From Catenulispora pinistramenti (GTDB taxonomy: Bacteria; Actinomycetota; Actinomycetes; Streptomycetales; Catenulisporaceae), in NCBI RefSeq assembly GCF_018274385.1, contig NZ_JAAFYZ010000034.1, positions 1 through 63,360 of the forward strand: a stretch of 63,360 bases of DNA, written 5' to 3'. A program made the translations under genes and the position numbers. Below, in pieces: positions 6,135-58,492 of this stretch. The notes below the pieces were generated by a model. It saw only the letters and a list, made by a program, of their open reading frames with translations. It was not told where the DNA came from and did not search any database. Every line of letters begins with the position of its first letter. Position 1 is the first letter of the stretch.

Positions 6135-6230
6135 CACCGAATCGATCAAGCGGTATTTCAAAAACCGGTTCTTAAGGATCCGGCATGTATTGAGTATTCT
6201 CTCGAGGCGCGCGAGTGGGATCGAGCTGCG

Positions 6231-6500: not shown

Positions 6501-6723
6501 CCTCATGCCACGCCGCCCTTGGTGTCACCAAGCGAGCCAGGTGACAACTACGTAGAAGACGCGCAACTCGGCGGCCAGGTACAACCGCCCCGGTCGCTGG
6601 ACCACTTTCGCCGAGGCGCGATTTAGCTCGATTGGGCAGCACCGCGACGTCAGCGGCGCCAGGGGCTCTGCCCAGGCGGCCCTATCTGGCCTCAGACTGG
6701 CGGAATGCCGACCGATGATCCGG

Positions 6724-6751
6724 CCGCCGGGCCGGTGACCCGGCCCGGCGG
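6724..6751 (-). terminator. GC hairpin after the immunity-like gene
   Basis: Perfect 10-bp arms at 6724-6733 and 6742-6751 with an 8-nt loop, 63 bp beyond the stop of the leftward gene 6815-7369. The rest of 6501-6814 shows nothing else. Confidence 0.6.
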
Positions 6752-6814
6752 TCCTTCAAGCAGGCCTGAGGGCAAGGCCCAGATCTACTGGCCCACGTGA
6801 GAGCCAAAGACCCA

Positions 6815-7369
6815 TTACGGCGCGTTCTGAAGCCAGCGCCCGATAGCAGCCTTCTCCTGTTCGGAGACATCAGGGAAATCAGCCAGCTGCGGCGCAAACT
6901 CGCGAAGTCCTGCATTGCGGGAAGGATCACGCGCAAGCGTGGAACCCACCGACGACTGACTCACATTGCCCACGACGATGACGCTTCCGTCGAGCGACAA
7001 CATGACAAAGCCAGGATGGCCCTGCCCGCGGCCGAGGATGCTCGCCGCGCCTCGACCCATTACATCCCATGACTGCGCCAGCCGGACGTGCGCCCACCAC
7101 CATTCGCCCGTCTGCTCCACCGCCACCAGGAATTCCCGGTCGGTGCCGAAGAGGCCGCCCTCGCTGGCGAGCTGATACCACCCGGAATTCGCCTGGGCGA
7201 CGAGGTCTGGAGCCTCCAGCTCGACGGCTGAATGCGGTACCGGCTCAGCCGTGGGCGGGAAGCTCGTTGCCGCGTTGGCGAGCCTCGGGGGGATCAGCGG
7301 AACCAGCGGATCCACCAATTCCACGAGCTCCAGGCCGCCTGCGGCCAGCTGCTCCGCCAGTTCGCTCAT
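6815..7369 (-). CDS. Putative immunity protein for the RHS toxin
   Basis: A 184-residue acidic protein of no recognised family. It has a Trp/aromatic-rich middle (SGWYQLASEGGLF, TGEWWWAHVRLAQSW) and a beta-rich centre with VMLSLDGSVIVVGN, without signal or membrane segments. It starts 60 bp after the stop of the large RHS gene on the same strand and is followed by a hairpin, so the two form a unit. In polymorphic toxin systems the gene immediately downstream of an RHS toxin is usually its cognate cytoplasmic inhibitor; the call rests on that context, not on a family match. Confidence 0.55.
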   Translation of the reverse strand: MSELAEQLAAGGLELVELVDPLVPLIPPRLANAATSFPPTAEPVPHSAVELEAPDLVAQANSGWYQLASEGGLFGTDREFLVAVEQTGEWWWAHVRLAQSWDVMGRGAASILGRGQGHPGFVMLSLDGSVIVVGNVSQSSVGSTLARDPSRNAGLREFAPQLADFPDVSEQEKAAIGRWLQNAP

Positions 7370-12001: not shown

Positions 12002-12358
12002 CCCCGACCCCCCATCAAGACACCAGCCGCCGCGAGAACCGACTGGCGCAAATACCGTAGCCTGCAAACACGCCAGGCCTGTCGCGGGGCGGCGACAGGA
12101 GCCATCGTCTCCAGTCCCGCGCCCCACTCAAGCCCAGGCTAAAACAGAGCACTGAGTTTACAGATCACGCGCAGAGACCGTAACCCGGCAGCGTGCATCG
12201 GTCACGGACCGTTGCGGGTGCGGTGTGCCGCAGGTGTCTGAGCGATCTCTCCGCGCAGCAGAAGGGACTACGTGCGCTGGCGGCTGCGACGACGTCGACT
12301 GTGCATCAGCCCCCGCCAGCCAGGCATACACAAGACGACACCGCGAGAAGTCTCGGCG
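12002..12358. other. Non-coding region upstream of the RHS gene
   Basis: 357 bp with only short overlapping frames and no family signal. It holds the leftward promoter for the RHS operon. The right border is a decayed hydrolase fragment on the other strand. Confidence 0.35.
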
Positions 12359-35573: not shown

Positions 35574-37123
35574 TACTCCAGCAGCGGTTCGGTGTTTCCG
35601 CTGGTGGCAGGCCCCGTACTGATTGTAGTGCGGGGCCTGTGTCCGTCGTCGCATCCTGCGGTGCGGCGGCGGTAGTGGCAGGCCCGGGACACCGCTTGCC
35701 GTCGTCGTCGCCAGGTCGACCAGGCCAGGACGTGCCGCACGGGTTCGTGGATCAGCGGAGGGGTGAGAGCAGCCATGAGCCGCCGGATCTCTGCCACAGA
35801 CAAGGCGATGACATGGGGCTGAATATCAGCGAAGCCCCCTTTTCGGCCGCGTCGGCGGCCTGGGCCGCCAGGAACGCGTGGGCGAGCATCGCCAAGGTGA
35901 CGTGCCGATACCAGCCTGGATAGCGTCTGACCTCGTACTCGTCCATGCCGCAGTTGTTTTTCGCGGACTGGAAGCATTCCTCGACCGCCCAGCGCGCCCC
36001 GGCGACCCGGACCAGCTCGGCGACCGGGGTGCTGGCTGGTGCGCAGGCCAGGTAGTAGGCGATCTCCTTGTCCGGGTCCAGGCTGCGGCGGGCCAGGATC
36101 CAGCGGTGATGCGTGGGCTCCTCGCCGTCGAAGTCCGGGACCGCCGGCAGCCGGGCGGCCGCCCAGTCGTAGACGCGGGGCCCCTTCGCTCCGTCGCCGC
36201 AGGACATCCGCTCCCAGGCCGGTTCCGGGGCGTCGGCGAACACCGCGTCGATCCGCCAGATCCCGCCGTCTGCCCGGACCTGCTGGGATTTCGGGACCGC
36301 GACCACGTAGCCGACGCCGTGGATCTCGCACATCCGCCGGAACTTGAAGTCGGCACCGTAGGCCTCGTCGGCGGAGACCCAGCCCACCGGCATCCCGGCC
36401 GCCAGCACCCGGGTCACCATCGTCCTGGCGATGTCCGGCTTGGTCGCGAAGACGCGCTGCTCGGGGATCCGCGCGGCCCGACACCGATCCGGGTGATCGG
36501 TCCAGGACTTCGGCAGGTAGAGCTCGCGATCGACCAGCGCCCGACCACGGCGCGACGCGTAGGCGGCGAACACCCCGATCTGACAGTTGTCGATCTTCCC
36601 CGAGGTGCCGGTATATTGCAGAGAAACCCCCGCTGACGTGCGGCCCTTCTTGATGAAGCCGGTGTCGTCCACGATTAGGACGCCGTCCGGTTCGCCGAGG
36701 CGTTCGGCCACGAAGTCCCGCACATCGTCCCGGACCTCATCAGCATCCCACCGGGCCGCGGCCAGCAGCCGCCGCAGTCCGTCCGGCGTGCCGTGCCCGG
36801 CGTACTCAGCCAGCTGCCAGCCGTTCTTCCTCCCGACCGGCCCCAGCAGGCCTTTCACGTAGTCCCGCATCCGGTAGCGGGTCTCCCGCCGGAAGAACCG
36901 GTCCCCGACCCGCACCAGCAACGCATCCAGCTGCTCCGACCACGATTCGGCCTGCTCAAGGCCCTCGACTATCGCCATGACCTGGCCAACGAATATCAGA
37001 GCACGAAGTCACGCAAGCAGCGGACCGCCGCCGCACCGCAGGATGCGACGACGGACACAGGCCCCGCACTACAATCAGTACGAGGCCTGCCACCAGCGGA
37101 AACACCGAACCGCTGCTGGAGTA
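35574..37123 (-). mobile_element. IS701-family element with 100-bp inverted repeats and CTAG duplication
   Basis: 1550 bp. Both ends start TACTCCAGCAGCGG, and the terminal inverted repeats run 100 bp (35574-35673 and 37024-37123) with a single mismatch. CTAG flanks both sides (35570-35573 and 37124-37127), the 4-bp YTAR target duplication typical of IS701. The element therefore looks complete and recently inserted. Confidence 0.92.
35752..36978 (-). CDS. IS701-family transposase
   Basis: 408 residues. Motifs of the IS701/DDE_5 group are present: VLIVDDTGFIKKG (first Asp region), GWVSADEAYGAD (second Asp), and RWAVEECFQSAKNN with the catalytic Glu, then WYRHVTLAMLAHAFLAAQA near the C-terminus. 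Length fits the family. The last ~25 residues look atypical but the frame is otherwise intact, so the enzyme may be active. Confidence 0.93.
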   Translation of the reverse strand: MAIVEGLEQAESWSEQLDALLVRVGDRFFRRETRYRMRDYVKGLLGPVGRKNGWQLAEYAGHGTPDGLRRLLAAARWDADEVRDDVRDFVAERLGEPDGVLIVDDTGFIKKGRTSAGVSLQYTGTSGKIDNCQIGVFAAYASRRGRALVDRELYLPKSWTDHPDRCRAARIPEQRVFATKPDIARTMVTRVLAAGMPVGWVSADEAYGADFKFRRMCEIHGVGYVVAVPKSQQVRADGGIWRIDAVFADAPEPAWERMSCGDGAKGPRVYDWAAARLPAVPDFDGEEPTHHRWILARRSLDPDKEIAYYLACAPASTPVAELVRVAGARWAVEECFQSAKNNCGMDEYEVRRYPGWYRHVTLAMLAHAFLAAQAADAAEKGASLIFSPMSSPCLWQRSGGSWLLSPLR

Positions 37124-37369
37124 CTAGTCATCCCGGCTCGTTGCCGTGCCGCTGGGTCGGCGCGAAAATGATGCGTGCGGGTGCCGTCCGCGGTGATGCC
37201 GATCTGTTCTTGGGTTGATATCCCGTGGCCTAGTCCGGCCTGGCCGCCGGTGAGGGGTTGTGTCCTGTCGCCTTGAGCACGCCGGTCAGAGTCGGCGTTC
37301 CCCTGTGGCGGCCGTGCGGACGGCGCCTGCGCGGTGTCGCTGGGGAGCGCGGATTGGGAGGGAGTCCCG

Positions 37370-38605
37370 ATGGACGAGCATGCCGAAGTGGTGGTGCTGG
37401 AACAGGCCGTCGAGCAGGTGGCTCGGGTTGCGGCGATCGACATTGCCAAAGCCAGCGCGATGGTGTGCACCAGGGTGCCCAGCCAGAAGAACCCTGATCG
37501 GCGGGTGCAGAAGACGTTCCCGGTGAAGGCGACCACCAACGCGATCGCCGAGCTGGCCGACCACCTGGTGTGTCAGAGCATCGAGCTGGTGGTGATGGAG
37601 GCGACCTCGGACTACTGGGGGCCCTTCTTCTACCAGCTGGAGGCCAGGGGGCTGAAGGTGCGGCTGGTCAACGCCCGGGATGTGAAGAACGTGCCGGGCC
37701 GGCCCAAAACCGACAAGCTGGATGCGATCTGGCTGGCCAAACTGGCCGAGCGCGGGATGCTGCGGCCGTCGTTCGTGCCCGGCAAGCCGGTCCGGCAGCT
37801 ACGCGGACTCACCCGGCTGCGGACCGCCCTGACCGAGGACCGCTCCCGCTACCGCAACCGGATCGAGAAGGTCCTGGAGGACGCCTGTTTGAAGGTGACC
37901 GACAAGACCGATGGCGCCTCGGACCTGTTCGGGGTCTCCGGCCGGGCGATGCTGGACGCCCTGATCGCCGGCGAACGCAACCCGCGGACGCTGGCCGAAC
38001 TGGCCCAAGGCCGGATGCGCGCCAAGATCCCCAAGCTGGTCGAGGCCGTGACCGGACACTTCGAGGACCACCACGCATACCTGATCGGGATGCTGCTGGA
38101 CGACCACGACCGGCTGACCGCACAGATCCAGGAGCTGACCGCCCGGATCGAAGCCGTGATCGCCGAGTTGGACCCGACACCCCCGCCCGATCCCGACCAC
38201 CCGACCCGCATGCCGCTGCTCGACCGGCTCGATGAGATCCCCGGAGTCGGCCGGGACACCGCAGCGGCGATCATCGCCAAGACGAAGATCGACGGCTCGA
38301 CCGCACGCACGGTTGCCCGAATATGCCGGGCCGATCTGATCGTCATCGATGACATCGGCATGCTCCCCGTCGCTGCGGAAGCCGCCGAGGCGTTCTACCG
38401 GATCATCGACGCCGCCTACGAGCGTCGCTCGATCGCCGTGACCTCGAACATCCACCCCAGTGGCTTCGATTCGATCATGCCGAAGACCATCGCCACCGCA
38501 GCAGTCGATCGCCTGCTCCACCACGCACATCTAGTGCTGACCAGCGGCGACTCACACCGGCTGGCCCAGGCTCTCGCCGGCAAGGGGGTGGTCCCGCTGA
38601 ACTGA
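37370..38605 (+). CDS. Chimeric ORF: IS110 transposase N-part joined in frame to an IS21 IstB C-part
   Basis: 411 residues from the ATG at 37370, with GGAGGGAG about 6 nt upstream. Residues 1-310 are an IS110-type DEDD transposase: AAIDIAKASAMV, ELVVMEATSDYW, KTDKLDAIWLAKLAERG, and the start of the Transposase_20 domain, LDEIPGVGRDTAAAIIA. Around residue 312 (nt 38305) it switches to the C-terminal third of an IstB/DnaA-like ATPase: ADLIVIDDIGML (Walker B), SIAVTSNIHPSGF (sensor-like) and AAVDRLLHHAHLVLTSGDSHR. Neither half is complete: the IS110 C-terminal Ser region and the IstB Walker A are missing. It is most simply a deletion junction between two insertion sequences, yet the frame stays open. 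Confidence 0.85.
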   Translation: MDEHAEVVVLEQAVEQVARVAAIDIAKASAMVCTRVPSQKNPDRRVQKTFPVKATTNAIAELADHLVCQSIELVVMEATSDYWGPFFYQLEARGLKVRLVNARDVKNVPGRPKTDKLDAIWLAKLAERGMLRPSFVPGKPVRQLRGLTRLRTALTEDRSRYRNRIEKVLEDACLKVTDKTDGASDLFGVSGRAMLDALIAGERNPRTLAELAQGRMRAKIPKLVEAVTGHFEDHHAYLIGMLLDDHDRLTAQIQELTARIEAVIAELDPTPPPDPDHPTRMPLLDRLDEIPGVGRDTAAAIIAKTKIDGSTARTVARICRADLIVIDDIGMLPVAAEAAEAFYRIIDAAYERRSIAVTSNIHPSGFDSIMPKTIATAAVDRLLHHAHLVLTSGDSHRLAQALAGKGVVPLN

Positions 38606-38669: not shown

Positions 38670-40352
38670 GGTTCTGGCGCTGATCTTGTGATCGGCCGCG
38701 TCCGTGATCTTCAGGCGTAGATCACCCGCTTGCGGAGCAGATCGAACTTCGCGCGGCCATACATCTGGCGTTTCAGCATCTTGATACGGTTGACGTGGCC
38801 TTCGACGGCACCGGAGCTGAACGGCAGGGTCAGGCCGGCGGTGACGGCGGCGTGGTCTTGGACGATGCCCCTGGTGAACGGGATCAGGTCGGGCAGCTCG
38901 GCGATGCGGACCTCGGGATCCAGGCGTTGAGTAGGTGTCCGTCGAGGTTGACCATCATTTTGGCGAAGTCTGTGACTAGCCCGGACAGGTCGTCCAGTTC
39001 CGGGCAGCGGGCCAGGATGCCTTTGAGTCGCTGTTGCTCGTCGGCGGATAGGCCCTCGGGGTGGCGGGTCAGCCAGCCGGTGGCGTCCCGGACCGTCGGC
39101 GGCACCGGGACGGCCGGGATCTTCGCGGCCTGTTTGCGGTAGGGCGCCAGGAACCGGCGCACGGTGCGGTCGGTGGCCTCATAGCCCAGGTCGCGCAGCT
39201 CGGCGGTGATGACGACGGCATCGGTGATCCCGGCGTTCCAGCGCTCGATGACGTAGGGCTTGAAGTCGTCCAGCACGCTGGGCCGGGTGACACCGCCCAT
39301 GAGCTGGGACGGGTTGTCGGCGTCGGCGTAGCGGCGGACGGTCTTGGCGTCCCAGCCGAGCTTGCGCTGGATCTTCGTCAGGGTGGCGCCCTCATCCAGC
39401 AGTTCGTGGACCATGCGGTGCCGTTCGATGGTGCGGATAGCCAGAGGCGAGGTGGTCGCTTCGGTCGCTGCCAGGTCCAACGTCGCCGGTGCGGCGGGCT
39501 CCGCGACCGGTTCGCGCAGGCAGCCGCGGTGCCGGGCGACCGTCGTCTCCACGGCCTCGCACAAGTTGTTCCACAAGTGCCAGCGATCAGCTACCTGGAG
39601 TGCGTCGGGGGCGCCGAGTCGGGCGGCCTCGGCGTAGGCGCCGGCCCGGTCGCGGCAGATCACCTCGACGCCGGGATGCGCGAGTAGCCACGCCGCGACC
39701 GGGCCCGCGGTGCGCTCGGGCAGCAGCTCGACCGGTCGACGCGTGGTCATGTCGATCAGTACCGTGCCGTAGACGTGGCCCTTGCGCAGGGCGAAGTCGT
39801 CGATCCCGAGGACCTGCGGCCCGGTCGCCGACTGGCTCTCGGGCAGCGCGCGGACCCGCCGCAGCAGGGTGTGCCTGCTCACCGCGATACCGAGCTTCGC
39901 AGACAGCCGCGCTCCAGCCCGGCCGGCCAGCGCCAAGCCGATCGCGTCGAACTCGTCGAGCAGTAGCGGCGTGAACCGGGAGTGCGGGCTGGTCAGCCCC
40001 GGTATCTGCTCGGCGAACGTGACAGCCTGGCAAGCCGGGTCCTGGCAGCGGAACCGCCGTACCGTCAGACGGATCACAACGCCGACGCCGCCGATCGCGA
40101 CGTCCCGCAGCTTGCCCACGTACCGGCCATGGACGCGGCCCGCGGCATCGCCGCAGTTCGGACATGCCGCCGAGTTGCTACGGGCGCGAGCGCCCAGCAC
40201 TACCGACCCGACGCCGCGCTCGATCTGCTCGACGATGACGCCGGCAAGGTGCGGCAGGAGTTCATAAGAACACTGTGATAGGCACCGCGCGATCCTCGCA
40301 GTGACCAGGCAAGATCACGAACCCGGCCAGTCACAAGATCAGCGCCAGAACC
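38670..40352 (-). mobile_element. ISL3-family element with 8-bp target duplication
   Basis: 1683 bp. Terminal inverted repeats begin GGTTCTGGCGCTGATCTTGTGA on both ends and continue imperfectly. The 8-bp direct repeat ATTTCCGA flanks it at 38662-38669 and 40353-40360, the duplication length of ISL3. Removing the element rejoins the IS21-like right end, so it landed inside that remnant. Confidence 0.93.
38711..40200 (-). pseudogene. ISL3-family transposase, frameshifted near the C-terminus
   Basis: The main frame (438 codons from a GTG at 40200) shows the N-terminal zinc finger CPNCG, RRFRCQDPACQAVTF, then VLGIDDFALRKG (first Asp), VICRDRAGAY (second Asp) and DRWHLWNNLCEA. At about 38925 it leaves the conserved frame and stops at 38884. 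In the neighbouring frame the normal ending continues (PFSSGAVEGHVNRIKMLKRQ with the catalytic Glu) to a TGA at 38711. A one-base indel thus removes the last catalytic residue. The N-terminal ~20 family residues also lie upstream of the start chosen. Confidence 0.85.
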
Positions 40353-41398: not shown

Positions 41399-42760
41399 AT
41401 GAGTGACCGTAAAAATGACAGCAACTACGTTCCCTCTCGATTCCTGAGCCTGTCCCACGATGAGGACGGTTCGCTGATCCTGTACTGCGCACGTACGGGT
41501 GCTGTCGGGGTCGTCGCCGATGGAGACGTTGATGCGGCACGAAGCGCGTTGCTGCCCGGCACGGTGACGGAAGGGCCTCTGGGCGGTATTCTCGCAGACC
41601 TGGAGCAAGGCGGATTCCTGGTGTCGGAAGGGGTCGATGAATCGGCGCTGGCGCACGAAGACTATATCCAGCGTTACACGGACAAGAGCCTTGAGCTGAT
41701 TGTCATGCCCACGGAGCAGTGTAATTTCCGCTGCGTCTACTGCTATGAGGCGTTCCTGCGCGGGGAGATGGCCCAGGATATCCGGGACGGTGTCAAAAGG
41801 TACGTCGAGTCACAGTCCGGGTTGGAGCAGCTGACCCTCTCGTGGTTCGGCGGGGAACCGCTACTGGCCGGCGATGTCGTGGCCGAGATCACCGAGTACT
41901 GCCAGTCATACGCCGAGCGGACCGGGGCGGCGTTCCTCTGCGCCGCGACGACGAACGGATACGAGCTCACTCCCGAATACGCGGAACGGATCCTCCCGCT
42001 GGGGCTCACGAACTTCCAGATCTCTCTGGACGGCGTCGAGCACGATCATGACGAACGCCGGGTCGGCGCGAACGGCGAAAAGACGTTCGCCCGCATCGTG
42101 GAGAACCTCCGGTATCTCCACGAGTCCGACCACGACTTCGAGGTCGCGATCCGCCACAACTTCGACCCGGGGAACCTTCCCCGCGTATCGGAGTTCTACG
42201 AGATGCTGAAGAGCGAGTTCGGCGGGGATGACCGGTTCGTCACCGAACTGCAGCCCATCGGGCGCTGGGGTGGACAAAACGACGCCGATCTGAGCGTCTG
42301 CGAAGGCAGGCCCATGCTTCGGTCCCTGATCGAAGCCAAGAAGCTCGCGCTGGACGCCGGCTTCCGGGACGCGCACGGAATCGACATGCTCCGCCCCAGT
42401 GGTGCCACCTGCTACGCCGCGAACCCCCGCTCGTTCGTCATCGGGTCCGACGGCAAGGTCTACAAATGCACCGTCGAGCTGGACTACCACGATCGCAACA
42501 TCGTGGGGCAGCTCCACGGCGACGGGACCATGGACTTGGACTGGCGAAAGATGGCGCTGTGGACGGAGACCAACGGCATGGACGCCGGCAAGAAGTGCGT
42601 CACCTGCTACTTCAGCCCCACGTGCCACGGCGCGATCTGTCCGAAGGAATGGATGGACGAGGACGAAGCCGAGTGCCCTAAGTCCAAGCACACGATCGGC
42701 GACACCTTGAAGCTCATCCGCGCGGAGAGCCTCTTCGTCAAGCCCGCCGGCGTCCCCTAG
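41399..42760 (+). CDS. Radical SAM/SPASM peptide maturase
   Basis: 453 residues from the ATG at 41399 (GGAAGG 9 nt upstream). Residues 1-95 form an N-terminal domain of the kind seen in RiPP radical SAM enzymes (SRFLSLSHDEDGSLILYC, ILADLEQGGFLV). The radical SAM core starts at residue 100 with CNFRCVYCY (Cys108, 112, 115 bind the SAM-reducing 4Fe-4S cluster), followed by WFGGEPLL and QISLDGVEHDHDERR. The C-terminal SPASM-like domain (about 330-430) has many Cys (CYAANPRSF, YKCTVELD, CVTCYFSPTCHGAIC, ECPKSKH) for auxiliary clusters. It would cross-link or otherwise modify the 22-residue peptide encoded 95 bp downstream. Confidence 0.93.
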   Translation: MSDRKNDSNYVPSRFLSLSHDEDGSLILYCARTGAVGVVADGDVDAARSALLPGTVTEGPLGGILADLEQGGFLVSEGVDESALAHEDYIQRYTDKSLELIVMPTEQCNFRCVYCYEAFLRGEMAQDIRDGVKRYVESQSGLEQLTLSWFGGEPLLAGDVVAEITEYCQSYAERTGAAFLCAATTNGYELTPEYAERILPLGLTNFQISLDGVEHDHDERRVGANGEKTFARIVENLRYLHESDHDFEVAIRHNFDPGNLPRVSEFYEMLKSEFGGDDRFVTELQPIGRWGGQNDADLSVCEGRPMLRSLIEAKKLALDAGFRDAHGIDMLRPSGATCYAANPRSFVIGSDGKVYKCTVELDYHDRNIVGQLHGDGTMDLDWRKMALWTETNGMDAGKKCVTCYFSPTCHGAICPKEWMDEDEAECPKSKHTIGDTLKLIRAESLFVKPAGVP

Positions 42761-42764
42761 AGCC

Positions 42765-42799
42765 CGGTAGGGCGGCACGGCGAAAGTACCGCCCTACCG
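42765..42799 (+). terminator. Hairpin between the radical SAM gene and the peptide gene
   Basis: Perfect 11-bp arms CGGTAGGGCGG (42765-42775) and CCGCCCTACCG (42789-42799), 4 nt after the radical SAM stop. It could terminate, attenuate or protect the upstream transcript, letting peptide and enzyme be made at different levels. Confidence 0.6.
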
Positions 42800-42855
42800 T
42801 TACCCGCCGCTGAACACTCAGCCGGCACCGTCAGAAAGCAGAGAGGGGGTGCCCA

Positions 42856-42924
42856 CCATGACCTGGATCGCGAAGTCGCGGATCAACAGCAAGCGCGAGC
42901 GGAAGCTCGACAACTACGGCTGCT
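42856..42924 (+). CDS. RiPP precursor peptide, 22 residues ending Asn-Tyr-Gly-Cys
   Basis: A short gene with ATG at 42856, GAGAGGGGG about 7-14 nt upstream and TAA at 42922. The peptide starts MTWIAKSRINSKRER and ends KLDNYGC. It has one Trp (position 3), one Tyr (20) and one Cys, which is the very C-terminal residue. A basic helical leader-like part precedes the short NYGC tail. It lies between a radical SAM maturase and a decarboxylase of the family that acts on C-terminal cysteines, which fits a peptide whose last residue is decarboxylated. An in-frame GTG three codons earlier is possible but sits on the ribosome site. The peptide's identity rests on context and composition only. Confidence 0.82.
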
Positions 42925-42932
42925 AACCGGCC

Positions 42933-42972
42933 GCCGGATGGGAGGCGACTCTGATCAGAGTCGCCTCCCATC
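42933..42972 (+). terminator. Perfect 40-nt palindrome after the peptide gene
   Basis: Arms 42933-42952 and 42953-42972 are exact reverse complements over 20 bp, starting 8 nt after the peptide stop. Such stems downstream of RiPP precursor genes act as attenuators or 3' stabilisers so that precursor outnumbers enzymes. Confidence 0.75.
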
Positions 42973-43044
42973 CGCTCATCCCGCCGCAGATCCCACCCGA
43001 ACTCCGTGTAGACCACCAAGCCTCCGCACCGAAGAAGGAAAACC

Positions 43045-43719
43045 ATGAACAACGCCCTACCTTGCGAGAAGCTGCTGATCGGAGTCAGCGGATCGATCCA
43101 CTGCTCCCAAATAGGCGGGTACCTTGCGCAAATCCGACGAGAGTTCGCCGTGTCGATCCGCGTCATCATGACCCGAACCGCCTGCGACATGGTGAACCCG
43201 AAGACGGTGGAACTCCACACCGACAGCCCGGTCATCGCCGACATCTGGGGCACGCCCCAATCAAAGAGCCCCCATATCACCGCCACTCGCTGGGCCGATC
43301 TCTTCGTGGTACTGCCCGCCTCCGCGAACATCCTCGGCAAAGCCGCCCACGGCATCGCGGACGACGTCCTGTCGACCGCGATTCTGGCCTCACGCGGACC
43401 GATAGCGTTCGCGCCGGCGATGAACCCGTCCATGTGGGAGAGTGCCGCAGTCCAACGGAACCTGCAGACGCTGAAGGAAGACGGCCACTACATCATCCCG
43501 CCGCAAGAGATCACCTCTGTGACCACCGGAGACTACGACTCCGGTCTCGGGCCGACTCCGGAGTCGCTCATGCCCCACCTTTGGCACGTGCTGATGAAGC
43601 ACACCAAAGATGTTTACTGGGAAGAGGCGACGCGAACCCTACCGATGACGCCAGCTGAACGTGCGCGGCAGAACTTGCCGCTGCTCGCCATAGCCGACAA
43701 GCAGCAGGCGAGTGCTTGA
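43045..43719 (+). CDS. Flavin-dependent cysteine decarboxylase (EpiD/Dfp family)
   Basis: 224 residues from the ATG at 43045, with AAGGA 5-6 nt upstream. It has the HFCD flavoprotein pattern: GVSGSIHC near the N-terminus (FMN phosphate), the catalytic His77 in PHITATRWAD, PASANILGK at 91-99 (PASANT motif) and PAMNPSMW at 124-131 (substrate-clamp motif). Members oxidatively decarboxylate a C-terminal Cys to an aminoenethiol (EpiD, MrsD) or phosphopantothenoylcysteine (Dfp CoaC). No CoaB domain is attached and it lies beside a peptide ending in Cys, so peptide decarboxylation is the likely role. The C-terminal ~40 residues extend beyond the minimal fold. Confidence 0.9.
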   Translation: MNNALPCEKLLIGVSGSIHCSQIGGYLAQIRREFAVSIRVIMTRTACDMVNPKTVELHTDSPVIADIWGTPQSKSPHITATRWADLFVVLPASANILGKAAHGIADDVLSTAILASRGPIAFAPAMNPSMWESAAVQRNLQTLKEDGHYIIPPQEITSVTTGDYDSGLGPTPESLMPHLWHVLMKHTKDVYWEEATRTLPMTPAERARQNLPLLAIADKQQASA

Positions 43720-43934: not shown

Positions 43935-44457
43935 TCACAGCAGCAGGACGCGCTTTCGGAGAAGCGGGAGCCCAGCTCGTCCATACATCTGCCGCTTGGC
44001 TAGCTTGATCTTGGTGACGGTGCCCTCTACGACGCCGGAGCTCCATGGCGAGGTGACCGCGCCGAGCACTGCGTCCCAGTCCTTGTCCAGTCCTGTGGCG
44101 AAGGTCTTCAGCGCTGGCAGAGTGTCCGTTCGGGCTGCGTTCACCCACTTGAGTAGGCGTCCGTTGCTCGGCCGGCTTGTGAGCAGGCCGGCGAAGGCGG
44201 CGACATGTTCGCGCAGACGGGCCAGGTCAGGGCAGTCGTTCAGTGCTTGTTTCAGGCCGCTGCGCTCGTCCTCAGTCAGCGCGGCCTCAGGCCGCATGAG
44301 CCAGCCTACGAGGGTCCTGGTCTTCGGCGGGGTGACGGTAGTCGGCGGCAGTACGCCGCGTACCGTCAGGGTCCGCAGATACCGGGACAGGGTGCGGAAG
44401 CTGCAGACCAGTCCGCGCTCGGTCAGTTCAGCGTGCAGCGCGGTGGCTGAGTGGCAG
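43935..44457 (-). pseudogene. C-terminal fragment of a second ISL3 transposase
   Basis: The frame carries LVGWLMRPEAALTEDE, then LREHVAAFAGLLTSR and the ISL3 ending WSSGVVEGTVTKIKLAKRQ followed by LLRKRVLLL and TGA at 43935. The N-terminal two thirds are missing; upstream coding stops where a biosynthetic gene fragment begins (about 44457-44461). It is a different ISL3 lineage from 38670-40352. The 215 bp between the decarboxylase and this fragment hold the IS end and nothing else recognisable. Confidence 0.8.
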
Positions 44458-44460
44458 CCG

Positions 44461-44802
44461 AGTGTGGAGGGCCACCGCGAGATCGTGGAGCGCAACATCG
44501 CCTCGGCCAAGCTGCTCGGCGAGCGGCTGGCGGGGTTGCCCGGCGTGCGGTTGGCGGCCCCGGTCCGGCTCAACGTGGTCTGCTTCACCGTCGGGGAGGA
44601 CGGAGCCGGCGCGGTGAACCCGGCCGACGCGGCCGAGGCGGTCAAGGTGGTCGTCGCGGCCGTCGCCGAGAGCGGGCAGGTGTTCGTGACGCCCACGGTG
44701 CTGGCCGGGACGCCGGCCGTCCGGGTCGTGTTCAGCAACTGGCGGACCGGACCCGGCGACGACGATCTGATCTTCGAGGCCTTCCGGAGGGCGCTGTCAT
44801 GA
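44461..44802 (+). pseudogene. C-terminal tail of a PLP-dependent decarboxylase, 5' end cut by an IS
   Basis: About 113 codons: GHREIVERNIASAKLLGERLAGLPG, split here as GHREIVERNIASAK and LLGERLAGLPG, then RLNVVCFTVGEDG and VRVVFSNWRTG. This is the small C-terminal domain of group II (aromatic amino acid/glutamate type) PLP decarboxylases. The PLP-lysine domain is lost upstream at the ISL3 fragment. Its TGA overlaps the next ATG by 4 bp (ATGA), so it was the preceding gene of the PKS-NRPS operon and may have supplied a decarboxylated amine starter. Confidence 0.75.
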
Positions 44803-45680
44803 CCGTGGACCTGGGACGGATGGGACTGTGGGCCCCGTGGGCGCTGTGGGACGCGCACGGCGCCGGCCTCGCCGACGCCGCCGCCGAACTCGACGGGCTC
44901 GGCTTCGGCACCCTGTGGATCGGCAACGAGCCGGGCCTGTTCGCGGCGGCGGAGTCGATGCTGGCCGCGACGTCGCGGATCGCCGTCGCGACCGGGATCG
45001 CGAACATCTGGGTGCATCCGGCTGCCGTGGCGGCGGCGGCCGCCGCACAGGCCGCGGTCTCCCATCCGAACCGCCTGCTGCTCGGCGTCGGCAACGGACC
45101 GCGGGAGGCGGCCCAGTGGTGGCTGTCGCCGTACGCGCGCATGATCGCCTACTTCGACGAGCTCGACCGGCTCGGCACACCGGCCTCCGCACGGATCCTG
45201 GCCGCCGTCGGGCCGAAGATGCTGGCGCTGGCCGCCGAGCGCAGCGCCGGAGCGCACCCGTTCCTGACGACGGCGGAGCACACGCGGCAGGCGCGGCAGG
45301 CTCTCGGCCCCGGGCCGCTGCTGACCCCGGAGCTGAAGGTAGTCCTGGAACCGGCCCCGGAGCGGGCCCGGGCCACGGCGCGCGGGGCCCTCGGCTTCTA
45401 CCTCGACAAGCGGGGGTTCTCCACGAACCTGCGACGGCTCGGCTTCACGGACGCGGACCTCGGCGGTGGTGGCAGCGACCGGCTGGTCGACGCGGTCGTG
45501 GCGTGCGGCGACGCCGACCGGGTACTGCGACGCATCGCCGAGTTCCGCGACGCCGACGCGGACCACGCCGCGCTCCAGGTGACTACGGACGGCACGAACC
45601 ATCCGGAGGTCGGGCGGCGCCGGCTGCCGACGGCGGAGTACCGGGTGCTCGCCGAGGCGCTGGGGCCGGTGCCGTCGTGA
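44799..45680 (+). CDS. LLM-class flavin/F420-dependent oxidoreductase
   Basis: 293 residues from the ATG at 44799. It is a luciferase-like barrel: MGLWAPWALWDAHGAG at the N-terminus, LWIGNEPGLFAAAESML, IAVATGIANIW and LLLGVGNGPREAAQWW. The layout fits the F420-dependent TIGR03620-like group. It oxidises or reduces a small substrate in the cytoplasm. It is translationally coupled on both sides (ATGA and GTGA overlaps), placing it firmly in the PKS-NRPS operon. Length is typical. Confidence 0.85.
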   Translation: MTVDLGRMGLWAPWALWDAHGAGLADAAAELDGLGFGTLWIGNEPGLFAAAESMLAATSRIAVATGIANIWVHPAAVAAAAAAQAAVSHPNRLLLGVGNGPREAAQWWLSPYARMIAYFDELDRLGTPASARILAAVGPKMLALAAERSAGAHPFLTTAEHTRQARQALGPGPLLTPELKVVLEPAPERARATARGALGFYLDKRGFSTNLRRLGFTDADLGGGGSDRLVDAVVACGDADRVLRRIAEFRDADADHAALQVTTDGTNHPEVGRRRLPTAEYRVLAEALGPVPS

Positions 45681-46987
45681 GGAGGTTCCGGGCCGTTGTC
45701 GCGGGATACTCCGTCTCCGCGTACGGCAGCTACCTCGACTCGGTGGCCCTCGCGCTGTTCGTGTACGAGGCGAGCAAGTCGTCGCTGGCCGTTGGCGTGT
45801 ACCTGGCCCTCCGTCTGGGCAGCGGCGTCGTGAGCGGTATCACCGGCGGCCGTCTGCTGGAGCGGGTTCCGCACCGCCGGGCGATGATCGTGACGTGCCT
45901 GATCCAGGCGCTGGCGCTGTTCGGGCTCAGCGCGGCGCCGCACGGGTCGCGGGTCGCCCTGTGCTTCGTGCTGGCGGTGATCGCCGGATACGCCGGCACG
46001 CTGTTCGCGGTCTCGCTACGCAGCATGATTCCCGAGGTCGTCGGCGACGACCGGCGGGACCGGGCGAACTCGCACCTGGTGATGGGGCGGTCGCTCGCCA
46101 TGGTCGCCGGGTACGCGACGGCCGGGCTCGTCGTGGCGGACCTCGGTTTCACCGCGGCCTTCCTGATCGACGCCGCCACCTACCTCGTGTGCGCGGCGGC
46201 GGTGCTCGGGCTCCCGCGCGATGCCGGGGCCGCACCGGCCGAGCCCGCCGAAGCCGCCGGTACCGAAGCCGCCGGTATCGACGCCGGAAAGCCGAGCCGT
46301 GGTCCGCTGGCCGGCAGCCGCCTGGCCGTCGCCGCCCTGCGCGCGGTCCCGCTGCTCCTGCTGATGGTCGGCCTGCGTGCCGTGGACGCGCTCGGCTCGT
46401 CGTCGCACAACGTGGCGCTCCCCGTGTACTCGGCCACCGCGGACGCCGCGCACCCCGCCGACTTCGTCGCGCGGTTCTGGCTGTGCTGGGCCATCGGGAA
46501 CATCCTGGTGCAGCAGGCCGTGCAGCTCGGGGCCAGGCGGTACGGATTCGCCACCGGCGCCTCCGGGTTCGGCGTCGGCACCATCGTCATGTCAGCGGCC
46601 TTCATCGCCGCCTTCGCCGGGCTCGGTCTGTGGCCGACCGTCGTGATCGCGGTCGTCGCCGGGGCCGCCGACGGCTTCACCGAGGTTTCGTACACCTCCT
46701 CGCTCCAGACGCTGCCGGTCTCCGCCCGGACCCACGCGTTCGGCCTGTCGGCGACCGTCGAGAACGCGGGGTTCGGCATCGGGATGATCGTGTGCTCGGG
46801 TCTGCTCGAGCGGCTCACCCCGCTGGAGGTGGTCGGCGGTCTGCACCTGATCGCCATCGGCGTGGCGGTGGTCTTCGTCGCGACGACCCGGCGGCGGAGC
46901 ACGGCGGCGGCGGTCCCGCCGCTTGGCGGTTTGGTCCGGTCCGGCGCCTCCGGCGCGGTCCCGGCCGAAGAGGGTGCGGACGCGTGA
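45677..46987 (+). CDS. MFS transporter, probable product exporter
   Basis: 436 residues from a GTG at 45677 overlapping the previous stop. About 12 membrane segments are visible, e.g. SVALALFVYEASKSSLAVGVYLALRLGSG (pieces: SVALALFVYEASKSS and LAVGVYLALRLGSG), GLVVADLGFTAAFLIDAATY and IAVVAGAADGFTEVSY. GRLLERVPHRRAMI is the loop 2-3 motif. A Pro/Ala/Glu-rich cytoplasmic loop (about 175-205) divides two halves. The final ~35 residues are a disordered tail. It overlaps the start of the megasynthase gene, implying export of its product. Confidence 0.85.
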   Translation: MRRFRAVVAGYSVSAYGSYLDSVALALFVYEASKSSLAVGVYLALRLGSGVVSGITGGRLLERVPHRRAMIVTCLIQALALFGLSAAPHGSRVALCFVLAVIAGYAGTLFAVSLRSMIPEVVGDDRRDRANSHLVMGRSLAMVAGYATAGLVVADLGFTAAFLIDAATYLVCAAAVLGLPRDAGAAPAEPAEAAGTEAAGIDAGKPSRGPLAGSRLAVAALRAVPLLLLMVGLRAVDALGSSSHNVALPVYSATADAAHPADFVARFWLCWAIGNILVQQAVQLGARRYGFATGASGFGVGTIVMSAAFIAAFAGLGLWPTVVIAVVAGAADGFTEVSYTSSLQTLPVSARTHAFGLSATVENAGFGIGMIVCSGLLERLTPLEVVGGLHLIAIGVAVVFVATTRRRSTAAAVPPLGGLVRSGASGAVPAEEGADA

Positions 46988-49900
46988 ACCGGGCGGTCGC
47001 GATCATCGGCACGGCGTTCCGGTTCCCCGGCGCCGACACCGCCGAGCAGTTCTGGCAGACCATCCGTGATGGCGCGGTCCACATCCGCCGCTTCACCGAG
47101 GACGACTTCGCGCGCGCGGGAGTTCCCGAGCAGGACTACCGCGAACCGGACTTCGTCGGCTCCAGTGCGCTGCTGGACGGCATCGCACAGTTCGACGCCG
47201 AGTACTTTGGCATCTCGGGCAGGGAGGCCGAGGTCACCGACCCCCAGCAGCGCCTGCTGCTCGAATGCTGCCACCACGCGCTTGAGGACGCCGGGTACGC
47301 GCAGCCGCAGCCCGGCACCCGCGTCGGCGTGTACGCCAGCACCGGATACCGGCTGTACACGATGCAGAACTACCTGGCCAACAACCTCACGGTGGCCGGC
47401 TGGAGTCCCGACTGGGCATCGGGCAAGCAGGTGCAGGTGGGCAACGCGCCGGACTTCGCCGCCGCGCGCGTCGCGTTCCGGCTCGGGCTCACCGGTCCCG
47501 CCATGAGCGTGCAGACCGCGTGTTCCAGCTCCCTGGTGTCCGTCCACCTCGCTGCCCGCGCGCTGATCGCCGAGGACGCCGACCTGGCCGTCGTCGGGTC
47601 GGCGGCGCTGCACCTGCCGCAGGTGTCCGGCCACCGCCATATGCCCGGCTCGACGATCTCGCCGACCGGTGGCCTGCGGCCCTTCGACGCCGATGCGGAC
47701 GGGACGGTCGGCGGCAACGGCGTCGCGGCGGTGGTGCTCAAGCGCCTGGACGACGCGCTCGCCGCGGGGGACGCGATCCGTGCCGTGATTATCGGCAGCG
47801 ACGTCTCCAACGACGGTGCCGGCAAGCGGGGCTTCGCGGCGCCGGGTGTCGACGGCCAGCGGGAGGCGGCGGTCCGCGCGTTGCGGGACGCGGGCGTGCC
47901 CGCCGAGTCGATCGGCTACCTCGAGGCGCACGGGACCGGGACGGTCAAGGGCGATCCGATCGAATACGAGGCTCTCAGCTCGGCGTACCGGTCGTCGTCC
48001 GGCGCGACCGGGTTCTGCGAGCTCGGCACGATCAAGGGCAACATCGGCCATCTGGACGCCTGCGCCGGCCTGGCCGCCCTGATCAAGGCCGTCCTGGTCC
48101 TGGAGCACGGCGAGATCCCGCTGCTGGCCGGCCACACGCGGATCAACCCCACGATCGCAGCGGCGGACGGACCGTTCACGATCTCGCCGCGATCCCGGCC
48201 CTGGCCGCAGACCGGCGGGCCCCGTCGGGCAGCGGTCCACTCCGTTGGCATGGGAGGCACGAACGCGCACGTGATCCTCCAGGAGGCTCCGCCACCGGCC
48301 GCGCGTCGCGCAGACGCGGCGCCGGTGGCCGTGCTGCCGCTGTCCGCGCACACGGACGGCGCGCTCCGGGACGTGGCGGAGGCCTATCGCAGGGCTCTCA
48401 CCGAGTCCTCGACCGGCGACCAGTCGTCGGCGGACCGCAGCCGGTCCGCAGACGTCGTCACCACGGCCGCTCTCGGACGTCGTCATCGCCGGCACCGGCT
48501 CGTGCTGCTCGGGAGCGGCTCCGAAGACTTCGCCGGCGCCGTCGACGACTGGCTGGAACACGGCGCGACGGCTGCGCACGCCTCCGGATCGCGGTGGCTC
48601 TCCGGCAGCGTTCCCGAGGGTCCGGCGGACGCCCGCGTGACGTTCCTGTTCAGCGGACAGGGCGGCCCGCACGCGGGAATGGCGCGCGAGCTGGCCGAGC
48701 GGTTCCCCGTCTTCCGGCACGCCCTCGACGACTGCGATCAGGCCTACCGGGCGGCCGGCGGCGACTCGCTCCTTCCCGATCTCCTCGGTCTCGACAAGCC
48801 GGCGGCCCGGTGGGGCACCGACATCGCGCAACCGGCGATCTTCGCTTTCCAGACCTCCCTCGTCCGGCTCTGGGCCGACCTGGGTGTCGCACCGCATATC
48901 GTGGCCGGGCACAGCGTCGGCGAGTACGCGGCGCTGTGCGCCGCCGGGGCGCTGGACATCGCCGACGGGATGAGGCTGACCGCGGCGCGCGGCCGTCTGA
49001 TGGCGGGCACCACGCACGGCCGGATGGCAGCGGTGTTCGCCGACCGGTCGCTGGTGGAGTCCCTGGCCGTGGTCTGGCCCGGTGTCGAGCTCGCGGTCTC
49101 GAACGGCACGGCCCACCACGTGATCGCCGGGACTCCGGAGGCTGTCGCCATTGCCCTGCGCCAGTGCGACGGCGACGGCGTTCCCTGGACCGATCTCCTG
49201 GTGGACCGCGCCTTCCACTCCTCGCTGCTGGATCCGGTCCTGGCGGGTTTCGCCGCCGTCGCGCGCGGCGCGGCGTTCGGGCCCACGACGGTGCCGTTCG
49301 TGTCGGGGCTGGACGGCGTCGTGCGCCCCGCCGGGTGGACGCCGGACGCGGAGTACCTGGTCCGCCAGGCGCGGGATCCGGTCCGGTTCGACGAGGTCCT
49401 GGCCCGGCTGGGGGACGCCGGAGCCCACGGATCGGCGCTGCTGCTGGAGATCGGCCCGGACGCGGTCCTCACCGGCCTGGCCCGCCGGGCCCTGCCGGCC
49501 GGCCCGCCGGCCGTCGCATCGCAGACCCCGAAGAGGCGGCTGGACACGTTCTGGTCGGCCCTCGGCCGCCTGTGGTGCGACGGCGTCGAGGTCGACTGGG
49601 GCCGTCTGCTCGCGGACTGCCAGGGCCGACGCATCCCGCTCCCGACCTATCCGTTCCGCCGCACCCGGCACTGGGTCGGCCCGCCACCGCCAGCAGAGTT
49701 CGAACATCGGGGAAGTACCGTGCATCGTGCAGAAGACGCCGTGCTGGACCGGCTGACCGCCATCGCGGCCCGCCATCTGGGCTGCCGCCCCGCCGAGGTC
49801 GGCGCCGACCGTCCGTTCGTCGGCCTCGGCGCCGACTCGCTCCAGCTGATCGGCATGGTCAAGGACCTGGAGCACGAGTTCGGGGTCCGCATCGCGCTGC

Positions 49901-52900
49901 GCGAACTGCTGGAGGAGTTCGGGACGCCCGCGCTGGCTGCCGAGCTCGTCCGCAGCCGGCGGTCCGACCCGGACCCGGGCGGATCCGGCACGGACGGAGG
50001 AGGATCCGGCACGGGAGTGCAGATCCGCCTCCCGGCTCCCGCGCCGGCTCCGGAGGCCGCCGGGCTTCCAGTCGCGCCGGGCTCCCCGGCATCCCACGGC
50101 CCCCACGTCGTCCTCGACGCCGACTCCGGGATGACCGCCACCGCCGAGGCCTCCCAGCGCCGCCACATCGACGAGCTCACGCGACGGTTCGTCGGCCGCA
50201 TGCCGACGTCGAAGGAACTCGCGCAGCGCCACCGCCGCGTCCTCGCCGACAGCCGGGCCGTGGTCGGGTTCCGTCGGGGGAGCAAGGAGATGCTCTATCC
50301 GATCGCCGCGCAGAGCGCACACGGTTCGCGGCTCGTTGACGTCGACGGCAACTCCTACGTTGATATCACCATGGGCTTCGGCGCGCTGCTCCTGGGCCAT
50401 GAGCCGGAGCCGGTCGCCGAGGCCGTCCGCGAGCACCTGGCGCGCGGGGTCCGACTTGGCCCGCGCAGTGCGGACACCGGCGAGGTGGCCCAGCTCATCG
50501 CCGATCTGACGGGACACGAGCGGATCGCGTTCGCGGCCTCCGGCACCGAGGCGAACTCCGCGGCGCTCCGCCTGGCCAGGAACGCGACCGGTCGCGACAA
50601 GGTCGTCATGTTCAGCGGTTCCTACCACGGCCACATCGACTCGGTGCTCGGCCGGCGGGTCGGCCACGGTGCCGAGCGGGGGACCGTTCCGGTGTCGCCG
50701 GGGATTCCGCTCAGCGCGGTCGCCGAGCTCATCGTGCTCGAATACGGGAGTCCGGAGTCGCTGCAGGCGATCGAGGCGCTCGGCGAGTCCGTTGCCGCGG
50801 TCATCGTCGAACCGGTGCAGTGCCGGAATCCCCGGCTGCGGCCGATCGGATTCGTGCGGCGGCTGCGTGAGCTTACCCGGCGGCTGGGGATCGCCCTGAT
50901 CTTCGACGAGATGCTGACCGGGTTCCGGCCGCATCAGCGCGGTGCGCAGGACCTCTACGGCGTCGTGCCCGACCTTTCGACCTACGGCAAGGCGGTCGGC
51001 GGCGGCTACCCGATCGGGGTGATCGCGGGGAGCTCCGACGTCATGGACGGCGTCGACGGAGGGTTCTGGCAGTACGGCGACGACAGCGTCCCGCCGCGGG
51101 ACACCACCTTCTTCGGCGGGACCTATATGCAGCACCCGGTCTCGATGGCGGCCGCCAAGGCGGTGCTCACCCACCTGGTGGAGGAGGGGCCCGCCCTCCA
51201 GGAGGGGCTCAACGCCCGGACCGACCGGCTGGCCGGCACGCTCAACGCCTTCTTCGCCGAGCACGAGTACCCGCTCGAGCTCGACCACCACGGCTCCATG
51301 TTCCGGTTCCGACACAAGGCCGACCTGGACCTGCTGTACCACCACCTGGTGCTGCGCGGGGTCTACGTCTGGGAATGGCGCAGCTTCTACCTCTCCACGG
51401 CGCACACCGACGACGACGTCGACCGGGTTGTCGAGGCGGTGACCGGTTCGCTGACCGAGCTCCGCGACGCGGGGTTCTTCCCGTCCTCGAAGGTCCACGC
51501 CGCGCCGCGCCGGGCGGCACCGGCGGAGCAGCTGCGCCGGGCACCCGATTTCAGCGTGTACTTCTTCGGCAGCCATCGCCGCCAGGACAGCGCCCGCGAC
51601 GAGTACGCGCTGCTGACGGAGACCGTCCGGTTCGCCGACGACCACGGCTTCCACGCCGCCTGGCTCCCCGAGCGGCACTTCCACGAGTTCGGCGCGCTGT
51701 TCCCCAGCCCGTCGGTGCTGGCCTCGGCGCTCTCCCAGCAGACCAGCCGGATCAGGCTGAACGCCGGCTCGGTCGTGCTGCCGCTGCACGACCCGATCCG
51801 CGTCGCCGAGGAATGGTCGGTGGTCGACAACCTGTCCGGCGGCCGGGTGTCGATCGGCTGTGCGAGCGGTTGGCACTCCGACGACTTCGCCCTGTATCCG
51901 GACCGGTTCCAGGGACGCCGGGAACTGACGATGGAATACGTCGGGCAGCTGCGCACCCTGTGGAGCGGAGGCTCGCTGACCCGCCTTACGGGCAACGGCT
52001 CGGAGCTCGAGGTGCGGCTGCATCCCCGGCCGGTCCAGGACCTGCCCCCGATGTTCCTGGCCACCGGCGGCGACCGGGACTCCTTCGAGCGGGCCGCCCG
52101 CAACGACCTCGGCGTCGTCACGAATCTGGCGAGGCAGTCGCTCGAGGAGCTCGCCGAGAACATCGGGCACTACCGGAAGATCCGCGGCGAAGCCGGCCTG
52201 GATCCGGAGGCCGGCCGGGTAGCGGTGCTGCTCCACACCTATCTCGCCGACGATCACGACCGGGCGCGCTCGGAGGCTTTCGGGCCGATGGGCGAGTACC
52301 TGCGCTCGTCGCTGTTCATGCGGTCTTCGGCGCCCGCGACCGGCGCGATCGACAGCGGATCGCTCCCGGACGAGGACTTGGACTACCTCTTCGGGGAGGC
52401 TTATGCCCGGTACTGCGATGATCGGGCATTGATCGGTTCACCGGAGAGCTGCGCCGGGATGGTCGACAAGCTCCGCGCAGCGGGCGTCGACGAACTCGCG
52501 GCCCTGGTCGACTTCGGCATGACGCCCGAACGGCTGCGGTCGAGCATGGCGCTGCTGGCAGAGCTGCGGCTGCGGTTTCACCCGGAGACGGAACCGGCCG
52601 GCCCCGTCGTTCCGGCGGTCGAAGCCGCCACGCAGCCCGCGACGGCGGTACCGGTCACCCGCACGGCACCGGCCACCGCGATCCAGCGCCGGCTCTGGCG
52701 AGCCTGTCAGCTCACCGAGTCGAGCGCGTACCAGGAGGTGCAGGCGGCACGGTTCGACGGCCTCCTCGACGCGGCCGCACTGCGCACCGCCGTCAGGATG
52801 CTGATCACCCGCCACGACGGCCTGCGCACGGTGTTCCGCGCGGACAATCAGGACGGCGGGCTTCAGCAGTACATCCGTCCCGATCCGCAGGTCGACCTGC

Positions 52901-55773: not shown

Positions 55774-57314
55774 TGGAGACGACCGCCGAGGAGTTCCTCG
55801 ACCGGCTGCGTGCCCTCGACGTCCGGCTGGAGCCGTCGGGCGACGGCGGCCTGCGCTACGACGCCCCGGCGGGCGCCCTCACCGGCGAGCTGCTGACCCA
55901 GCTGCGCCGGCGGCGCGGCGGCCTGCTGGCATGTCTCGGGGGGCCGCCGGACCGGCTGCCCGAAGTCGTCGCCTCCGAGGCGGCCACCGTCCAGCAGGCG
56001 GGGCTGGCCGCCTACAGCCGCGACGCGCCGCTCCCGCACGTCCTGAACGTGGGAACCAAGATGACGATCACCGGCCATCTGGACCCGGTGGCGTTGGAGA
56101 CCGCGCTGGCCGCGCTCGTCGCCCGGCACGAGGGGATGCGGACGCGGATCGTGTCCGACGGCTCCGACGGGGCGGGCTGGCGCCAGGACGTCCTGGCGCC
56201 GGTGGCCCGGACGCTTCCGGTGGAGGATCTCTCGGACCTGAACGAGGCGGCGTGCGCCGCACGGGTCGCCGAGATCTGCCGGGAGGAGGTGAACAAGCCG
56301 TTCGACATCGGCGTCAGCACAGAGCCCAGATTCCGTCTGCTCCGCCTGGCCTCGGAATGCTGGGTCTTGCTCAACACCGTCCACCACGTCGCCACCGACG
56401 GCTGGTCGTTCACGGTCCAGCAGCGGGACCTCGCCGAGCTGTACCGGGCCGCGCTCACCGGCACCCCGTCCGGTCTGGCGGAAGTGTGGGCGCAGCCGCG
56501 CGACTACGCGCGCCGACAGCTCGAATGGCCGCTGGACCCGGCCACCGTGGAACACCGCCTGGACTACTGGCGCGGCGTTCTGGACGGCAGTCCGCTCCGC
56601 ATCGACCTGCCGACCGACCGGCCCCGCGGCGACGGGTCGGTGCCGATGACAGGTCGCGGGCGCACCTCGGCCTCCGCCATGCCGGGGGCGACGCGGGCGG
56701 CCGTCGAGGCGCTGGCCCGCGCCCGACGCACCACGCCGTTCGGTGTCACCGCGGCCGCGGGCGCCGTCCTGCTGGCCGGCCTGACCGGTCAGCGCGACCT
56801 CGTGATGCAGTTCCCGTACGCGAACCGCGACGACGAGATCTTCGCCGACACGGTGATGTTCTCGGCGACGAGCCTGGCCCTGCGCCTGCGTCTGGACCGC
56901 GCACCGGCCTTCGCGGACCTGGTGGATCAGGCGTCCCGGGCGGTGTGGGGAGCCATCGACAACCTGCTGCCCCTCGGCAGGATCCTCGCCGATCTCAAGG
57001 AGCACGGGGTGCCGGACGTCCCGGAACGCTTCCGGGTCATCGCCGTCCATCAGAACTCGATCGAACTGGGCATCGACCTGCCGGGCCTCACCGTCGTGAC
57101 CGAGGACCTGCCGACCGACACGGCCCGCGCCGACCTGACGTTCGGTGTGGCCCCGTACCCGGATCCGGCCGACGGCTACCGCGTCTTCGCAGAGCACCCG
57201 CTCGATCTCTGGGATGCCGAGACGGTCGACGAGTGGATGCGCACGTACGCCGCCATCGTCGCCAAAGCCTGTCGCGCGCCGGACACGCCGCTGGAGCATC
57301 TCGTGCTCGAAGCC

Positions 57315-58492
<1,178 letters not shown>

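Follow-up and report, generated by a model that had tools for sequence, protein, structure and literature searches.

A radical SAM enzyme, a 22-residue Cys-ending peptide and a LanD-type flavoprotein in Catenulispora pinistramenti: a compact peptide locus most likely of the AviCamCys kind

The stretch of DNA analyzed here (the window) comprises positions 1 to 63,360 of contig NZ_JAAFYZ010000034.1 of the actinobacterium Catenulispora pinistramenti. It carries three consecutive genes on one strand that encode a radical S-adenosylmethionine (SAM) enzyme, a 22-residue peptide and a flavoprotein of the type represented by the cysteine decarboxylase EpiD (Table 1). An initial annotation, made from the letters of the DNA alone, had read this trio as a pathway for a ribosomally synthesized and post-translationally modified peptide (RiPP); the open reading frames (ORFs) and the matches to PF04055 and PF02441 bear out the arrangement that it described. 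The peptide ends in DNYGC, and the last residue, Cys22, is indeed its only Cys.

Table 1. Features of the locus and its immediate flanks (FMN, flavin mononucleotide)
Feature	Coordinates	Strand	Details
Radical SAM/SPASM peptide maturase	41399..42760	+	453 aa; PF04055
Precursor peptide MTWIAKSRINSKRERKLDNYGC	42858..42926	+	22 aa; ORF sequence
Strong RNA stem-loop	42935..42974	+	18 bp stem, right after the precursor stop
LanD/EpiD-type FMN peptidyl-cysteine decarboxylase	43045..43719	+	224 aa; PF02441
ISL3-family transposase	38884..40200	-	upstream; PF01610, PF14690
Transposase-like fragment	43935..44500 (approximate)	-	directly downstream; by eye, within ORF 43935-45602

The first protein matches PF04055 with an E value of 5.7e-17. 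Its Cys residues 108, 112 and 115 form the CxxxCxxC motif, and further Cys residues at 338, 357, 400, 403, 409, 414 and 426 presumably make up the SPASM set. The best NCBIfam match, to the TIGR04463 maturases, spans residues 27-426 (E 2.2e-50), yet its 171.7 bits fall far under the cut-off of 525, and the protein likewise scores below the cut-off for mycofactocin MftC (TIGR03962; 63.9 against 265 bits). A structure model (predicted local distance difference test, pLDDT, 83.5) places anSME (Z 26.8, root-mean-square deviation [rmsd] 3.2, 335 aligned residues) and 5why (Z 26.3, rmsd 4.9, 387 aligned) in a tie; 5why/5wgg, anSME and ChlB are its fold neighbours. The only solved chain recovered by a sequence-profile search at E 1e-10 was 5wgg, which covered residues 99-269. 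Both 5wgg and 5why (CteB) stem from work on thioether bond formation. RiPP maturases often carry an N-terminal leader-binding domain, and the 5why match, which runs over model residues 13-442, includes the N-terminal region of the window enzyme.

The third protein has the full set of EpiD/LanD features, namely PF02441 (E 8.7e-26), the active-site His (His77), PASAN (91-95) and PxMNxxMW (PAMN at 124-127), as the initial annotation had read them. A phmmer search matches it to SpaF (7cfu, 2.7e-32), MrsD (1.9e-30) and EpiD (3.5e-13), and its structure model (pLDDT 80.8) matches the same three enzymes; RiPP cysteine decarboxylases are the best structure matches, with phosphopantothenoylcysteine (PPC) decarboxylase also near the top. 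Enzymes of the CoaC type reduce the enethiol that they form with a redox Cys. The window flavoprotein has no Cys beyond residue 47, so its enethiol product should persist.

Judging from conservation, we regard the small ORF between the two enzymes as a genuine RiPP precursor and the locus as genuine. A chance ORF is ruled out, the peptide being conserved at four other actinobacterial loci. By eye, its ribosome-binding site is plausible, and an in-frame GTG lies at 42849, 9 bases 5′ of its start. The stem-loop behind its stop has a fold z of -6.5, with none of 200 shuffled sequences equally stable. Strong stem-loops also lie 3′ of five of the six other precursors folded, the exception being the first precursor of locus L043 (L043a; z -0.13); the Halobacillus precursor described below was left out of this comparison.

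The relatives emerged from one non-exhaustive scan of an 84,980-species collection with exact eight-residue patterns of the radical SAM enzyme, which gave 29 loci, and from searches of related genomes. The two closest radical SAM homologues belong to Actinoplanes sp. KI2 (L003, with 66% identity) and Streptomyces sp. ODS25 (L004, with 56% identity); directly 3′ of each lies a short ORF that starts with MTWI and ends in Cys (MTWIAKAKAVGALTEPTNGNCGIC in L003 and MTWINKGSQDAMRKRSNGNNCNC in L004). A search of 354 genomes from the family to which L003's genome belongs turned up one more genome (G1124), with two loci: L043 encodes MVWISEGSSGSMAQEQTANNNCGIC and MVWISEGSDGTLVTKSTGKNNCGIC as precursors in tandem, and L044 carries MEWIVEISSEPAHRTYDNGNCVC ahead of the radical SAM gene, all starting with MVWI or MEWI and ending in Cys. 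An M-x-W-I start is conserved in the six actinobacterial precursors, which are 22-25 residues long, and the five actinobacterial radical SAM enzymes form one clade with 100/100 support in a 15-row tree. A similar set occurs in Halobacillus hunanensis (L005, Bacillota), where genes for a major facilitator superfamily (MFS) protein, a B12-binding radical SAM enzyme, a flavoprotein, a SPASM radical SAM enzyme and a 42-residue peptide ending in NNCNC follow one another; the B12-binding enzyme (Pfam; 5017-7224, between MFS and flavoprotein genes) suggests an added methylation there. An L005-like radical SAM enzyme is present at E 1e-60 in 16 of 348 genomes of that order, L005's own included, and in one of the 15 others (G1394, L094) a PF02441 gene adjoins it, in the order MFS, flavoprotein, 37-residue peptide ending in NCGGC, radical SAM. 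As to a single origin of the flavoprotein pairing, the tree, from which G1394 was left out, places the Halobacillus enzyme apart from the actinobacterial clade, though on long branches.

Seven similar loci are at hand: that of the window and those from three other actinobacterial genomes (one with two loci) and two Bacillota genomes. The distribution around the window is sparse: its type of radical SAM enzyme was found in no other genome when 14 genomes from its family (E 1e-50) and 396 from its phylum (E 1e-90) were searched. Six of 391 genomes of its order pass 1e-70, five of them with weaker matches over some 300 residues, and among 392 genomes of the genus of L004 only L004's own matched at 1e-100. 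The initial annotation would have yielded to homologous loci without a Cys-ending peptide; all seven loci have one, and their eight precursors fit N[CY]x(1,2)C-stop. A recognisable flavoprotein accompanies them in six of the seven, the exception being L004. Each of the six loci outside the window has a neighbouring MFS gene (Pfam), whose product is the probable exporter in these relatives. The earlier remark that no exporter is adjacent thus holds for the window and fails for the family.

On this comparison a terminal Cys and the decarboxylase occur together. All precursors that adjoin a PF02441 gene (7 of 7) have Cys as their last residue, whereas among those that lack such a neighbour only the L004 precursor does (1 of 11; Fisher p 0.00025, not a strict probability, as the precursors are related). 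The other ten precursors without PF02441 are putative ones from L006, L008, L009, L018, L033, L045, L046, L081, L086 and L088, and none of them ends in Cys; they were chosen by eye as the short ORF adjoining the radical SAM gene (at L045 an annotated hypothetical gene), and at L033, L045 and L046 the absence of a flavoprotein was judged on displayed ORFs or annotation. Seven further loci (L007, L017, L021, L025, L029, L079 and L082) were looked at and assigned no precursor. Among the 18 genomes with relatives L005-L022, for which contigs were not all matchable, a PF02441 gene adjoining the radical SAM gene was seen only in Halobacillus. Putative precursors of the flavoprotein-less loci end in NNCGCNVQCGAAALNPADVFASRGE (L006), DDCNCTSGSSLKS (L008) and NCWGCNTMFCVPE (L009). 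In those of L018 (8993-9295, ending NIGNCGCSTN) and L033 (2596-2760, NINCPCLQ), N-C-x-C lies short of the C terminus; further N-C-x-C sites came up when all 95 loci were scanned twice for motifs. The peptides at L081 (1373-1459), L086 (1362-1457) and L088 (2822-2962) end in SVPGNLR, SVPGNLK and SVPGSLR and contain no Cys at all; SVPG[NS]L[RK] peptides beside radical SAM relatives in genomes of the Halobacillus order are apparently a different conserved substrate. Deinococcus plasmids (L045, 3886-6327; L046, 3742-6340) offer another arrangement, with a luciferase-like oxidoreductase, the radical SAM enzyme and a peptide that contains ESGGAGxPGGGxHLD and has a non-Cys end.

The chemistry that these genes suggest is already in print. 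According to PMC11162475, a radical SAM enzyme and a LanD flavoprotein together make S-[2-aminovinyl]-3-carbamoylcysteine (AviCamCys) at the C terminus of a ribosomal peptide (Cheng, Huang, Duan, Liu 2023, Angew e202308733). That report overtakes the remark in the initial annotation that its author knew of no named class with exactly this trio and so short a precursor. As described in PMC11162475, the pathway resembles the window in that a radical SAM enzyme and a LanD flavoprotein close a C-terminal ring. The window has both genes beside one short precursor, and this precursor has a C-terminal Cys with an Asn just upstream; we take Asn as the expected residue because the name 3-carbamoylcysteine denotes Asn with sulfur on its β-carbon. 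As PMC11162475 describes, LanD enzymes convert a C-terminal Cys into an enethiol, and this thiol then adds to an unsaturated residue. In the ranthipeptide NxxcA, a radical SAM enzyme links Cys23 to the β-carbon of Asn20; one of the mechanisms proposed passes through a dehydro-Asn intermediate (PMC8326336). The window shares the NxxC spacing and the SPASM radical SAM fold with NxxcA (maturase NxxcB) and the CteB-type maturases and adds to them the C-terminal Cys and the flavoprotein; joining the NxxcA-type and LanD steps on such a peptide would yield AviCamCys. With the aminovinyl-cysteine (AviCys) and aminovinyl-methylcysteine (AviMeCys) peptides, those of EpiD (epidermin), MrsD (mersacidin), SpaF, TvaF and CypD (cypemycin), it has in common the flavoprotein fold and motifs and the C-terminal Cys, and the DSYTC peptide crystallised with EpiD (1g5q) resembles DNYGC; it differs from them in the radical SAM gene that adjoins its precursor. 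The locus most likely belongs to the radical SAM plus LanD (AviCamCys) kind, and the homologous loci and published chemistry support the RiPP reading and the gene functions proposed at the outset.

What is added here is a family of very short precursors, its single-Cys variant, its spread and the MFS neighbour of the relatives; in the literature consulted, most of it as passages, we found no account of these compact precursors as a family. With its 22-mer and two enzymes, the locus makes a minimal, easily expressed system for the cooperation of a radical SAM maturase with a cysteine decarboxylase, and the natural variants NYGC, NCVC, NCNC, NCGIC and NCGGC lend themselves to testing which residue is joined. 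The family also exposes a gap in the AviCys/AviMeCys mining rule, T/S-X(2-6)-C at the precursor C terminus (PMC11162475): its demand for Ser or Thr 2-6 residues before the terminal Cys is satisfied by four of the eight precursors and skips the other four, the window's included.

From the genes, motifs, fold matches, precursor conservation and flavoprotein-terminal Cys link observed here, we infer both reactions, their order, the atoms joined and leader recognition. We posit that the radical SAM enzyme would bind the short leader (MTWI...) and take a hydrogen from the β-carbon of Asn19, that the flavoprotein would oxidatively decarboxylate Cys22 to an aminoenethiol, and that the enethiol sulfur would then attach to the Asn β-carbon, closing an AviCamCys ring across N19-Y20-G21-C22. 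Asn would thereby fill the place that Ser or Thr has in AviCys rings, and no dehydratase would be needed; none was recognised by eye in the ORFs neighbouring the trio, where no profile search was made. We consider this union of an activated Asn19 and a Cys22 enethiol the probable outcome, if by no means an assured one. Among the links that the initial annotation had listed as candidates, that from the enethiol sulfur to Asn draws support from the homologous loci and PMC11162475.

Several observations weigh against such a ring. The spacing from Asn to the terminal Cys varies, being 3 in the window (NYGC), L004, L044 and L005 (NCNC at two of these loci, NCVC at one) and 4 in L003, L043 (both precursors) and L094 (NCGIC in three precursors, NCGGC in one). 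A second Cys stands 2-3 residues before the last in seven of the eight precursors, where the window has Tyr20, so that, on these sequences, its single-Cys core is the exception within the family. L004 keeps its Cys-ending peptide beside a third gene without a PF02441 match, which speaks against a strict rule tying flavoprotein to terminal Cys; this third protein shares with the flavoproteins only its C-terminal tail (E 9e-6 and 5e-8, single comparisons). The L005 and L094 flavoproteins read PNME and PNMG at PxMN and lack its Asn. Finally, the best NCBIfam match of the window flavoprotein is CoaBC, below the cut-off. We reject a housekeeping enzyme of the CoaC type as the third gene: the scores miss the CoaBC and PPC decarboxylase cut-offs (coaBC_dfp, 140.5 of 219.7 bits; coaC_strep, 97.1 of 261.4 bits), the structures favour RiPP decarboxylases and a conserved Cys-ending precursor adjoins. 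As a separate observation on L004, its third gene (9562-10143) keeps the W...M...YWDEA tail of the actinobacterial flavoproteins, and this tail may have a role of its own.

Conceivably, the loci of Actinomycetota and Bacillota form a family of their own, in which the invariant Asn, the internal Cys (Tyr in the window) and the decarboxylated terminal Cys make a bicyclic or metal-binding C terminus, the actinobacterial 22-25-residue peptide is never trimmed and the window variant has a second link that contains Tyr; we hold this possible, though on the whole unlikely. Also unlikely are two separate changes, with Cys22 decarboxylated and the radical SAM bond placed elsewhere, for example at Tyr20 or Trp3. 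In favour of this stand the position just ahead of x(1,2)-Cys, which holds Cys in seven of eight precursors and Tyr in the window, and Trp3, which is invariant in the six actinobacterial precursors; yet Trp3 sits in a conserved N-terminal part that resembles a recognition element, the Asn before the Cys/Tyr position is common to all eight precursors and Asn/Asp-Cys motifs recur in several flavoprotein-less relatives. We doubt, too, that the peptide serves as a scaffold from which trimming leaves a small cofactor or metal ligand, on the pattern of pyrroloquinoline quinone (PQQ), mycofactocin and 3-thiaglutamate. The actinobacterial precursors have no obvious core beyond some 5-8 residues, and inspection by eye of the ORFs adjoining the trio showed no peptidase, both of which would suit that reading; the MFS genes at all six other loci suggest that something is exported, and the loci are rare among the genomes searched.

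At the gene level the window, with a SPASM radical SAM enzyme and an Asn-x-x-Cys precursor, also fits an NxxC-type ranthipeptide. A plain Asn19-Cys22 β-thioether with the carboxylate kept and the flavoprotein doing something else would agree with the spacing seen in NxxcA (PMC8326336), with the match to a thioether-forming maturase and with the Cys end that L004 keeps beside no recognisable flavoprotein domain. We nevertheless think it very improbable, as every precursor with a flavoprotein (7 of 7) has its Cys exactly at the C terminus. A blocked thiol is, moreover, ill suited to an EpiD-type mechanism. Equally improbable is a decaying window copy, to which the flanking transposase genes (two more ORFs, recognised by eye, at 35752-36978 and 37334-38605, besides the ISL3 gene and the fragment after the flavoprotein gene), the missing adjacent MFS gene and the Cys-to-Tyr change in the core might point, given three open ORFs with their motifs, a plausible ribosome-binding site and a strong stem-loop.

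The window trio is flanked by transposase genes and lacks the adjoining MFS gene of the six other loci; the downstream transposase-like fragment may have displaced an exporter gene. A composite transposon with identical flanking insertion sequence copies is unsupported, the best match of this fragment to the sequence that adjoins the upstream ISL3 gene being 95 bases at 69%. Nor is there support for the MFS gene at 45677-46984 as the family exporter: its product is 28% identical over 184 residues to the L003 MFS protein (the L047 and L003 proteins, for comparison, share 36% over 408 residues), and it adjoins genes of the polyketide synthase-nonribosomal peptide synthetase (PKS-NRPS) type. By eye, these PKS-NRPS genes and the transporter occupy 45677-57347 and are apparently unrelated to the trio; the region has aminotransferase-like and luciferase-like stretches and, at 55770-57347, a condensation-domain protein (Pfam). 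Far upstream, at 7430-12127, lies a gene for an RHS-repeat protein with a putative type VII secretion system (T7SS) signal (Pfam).

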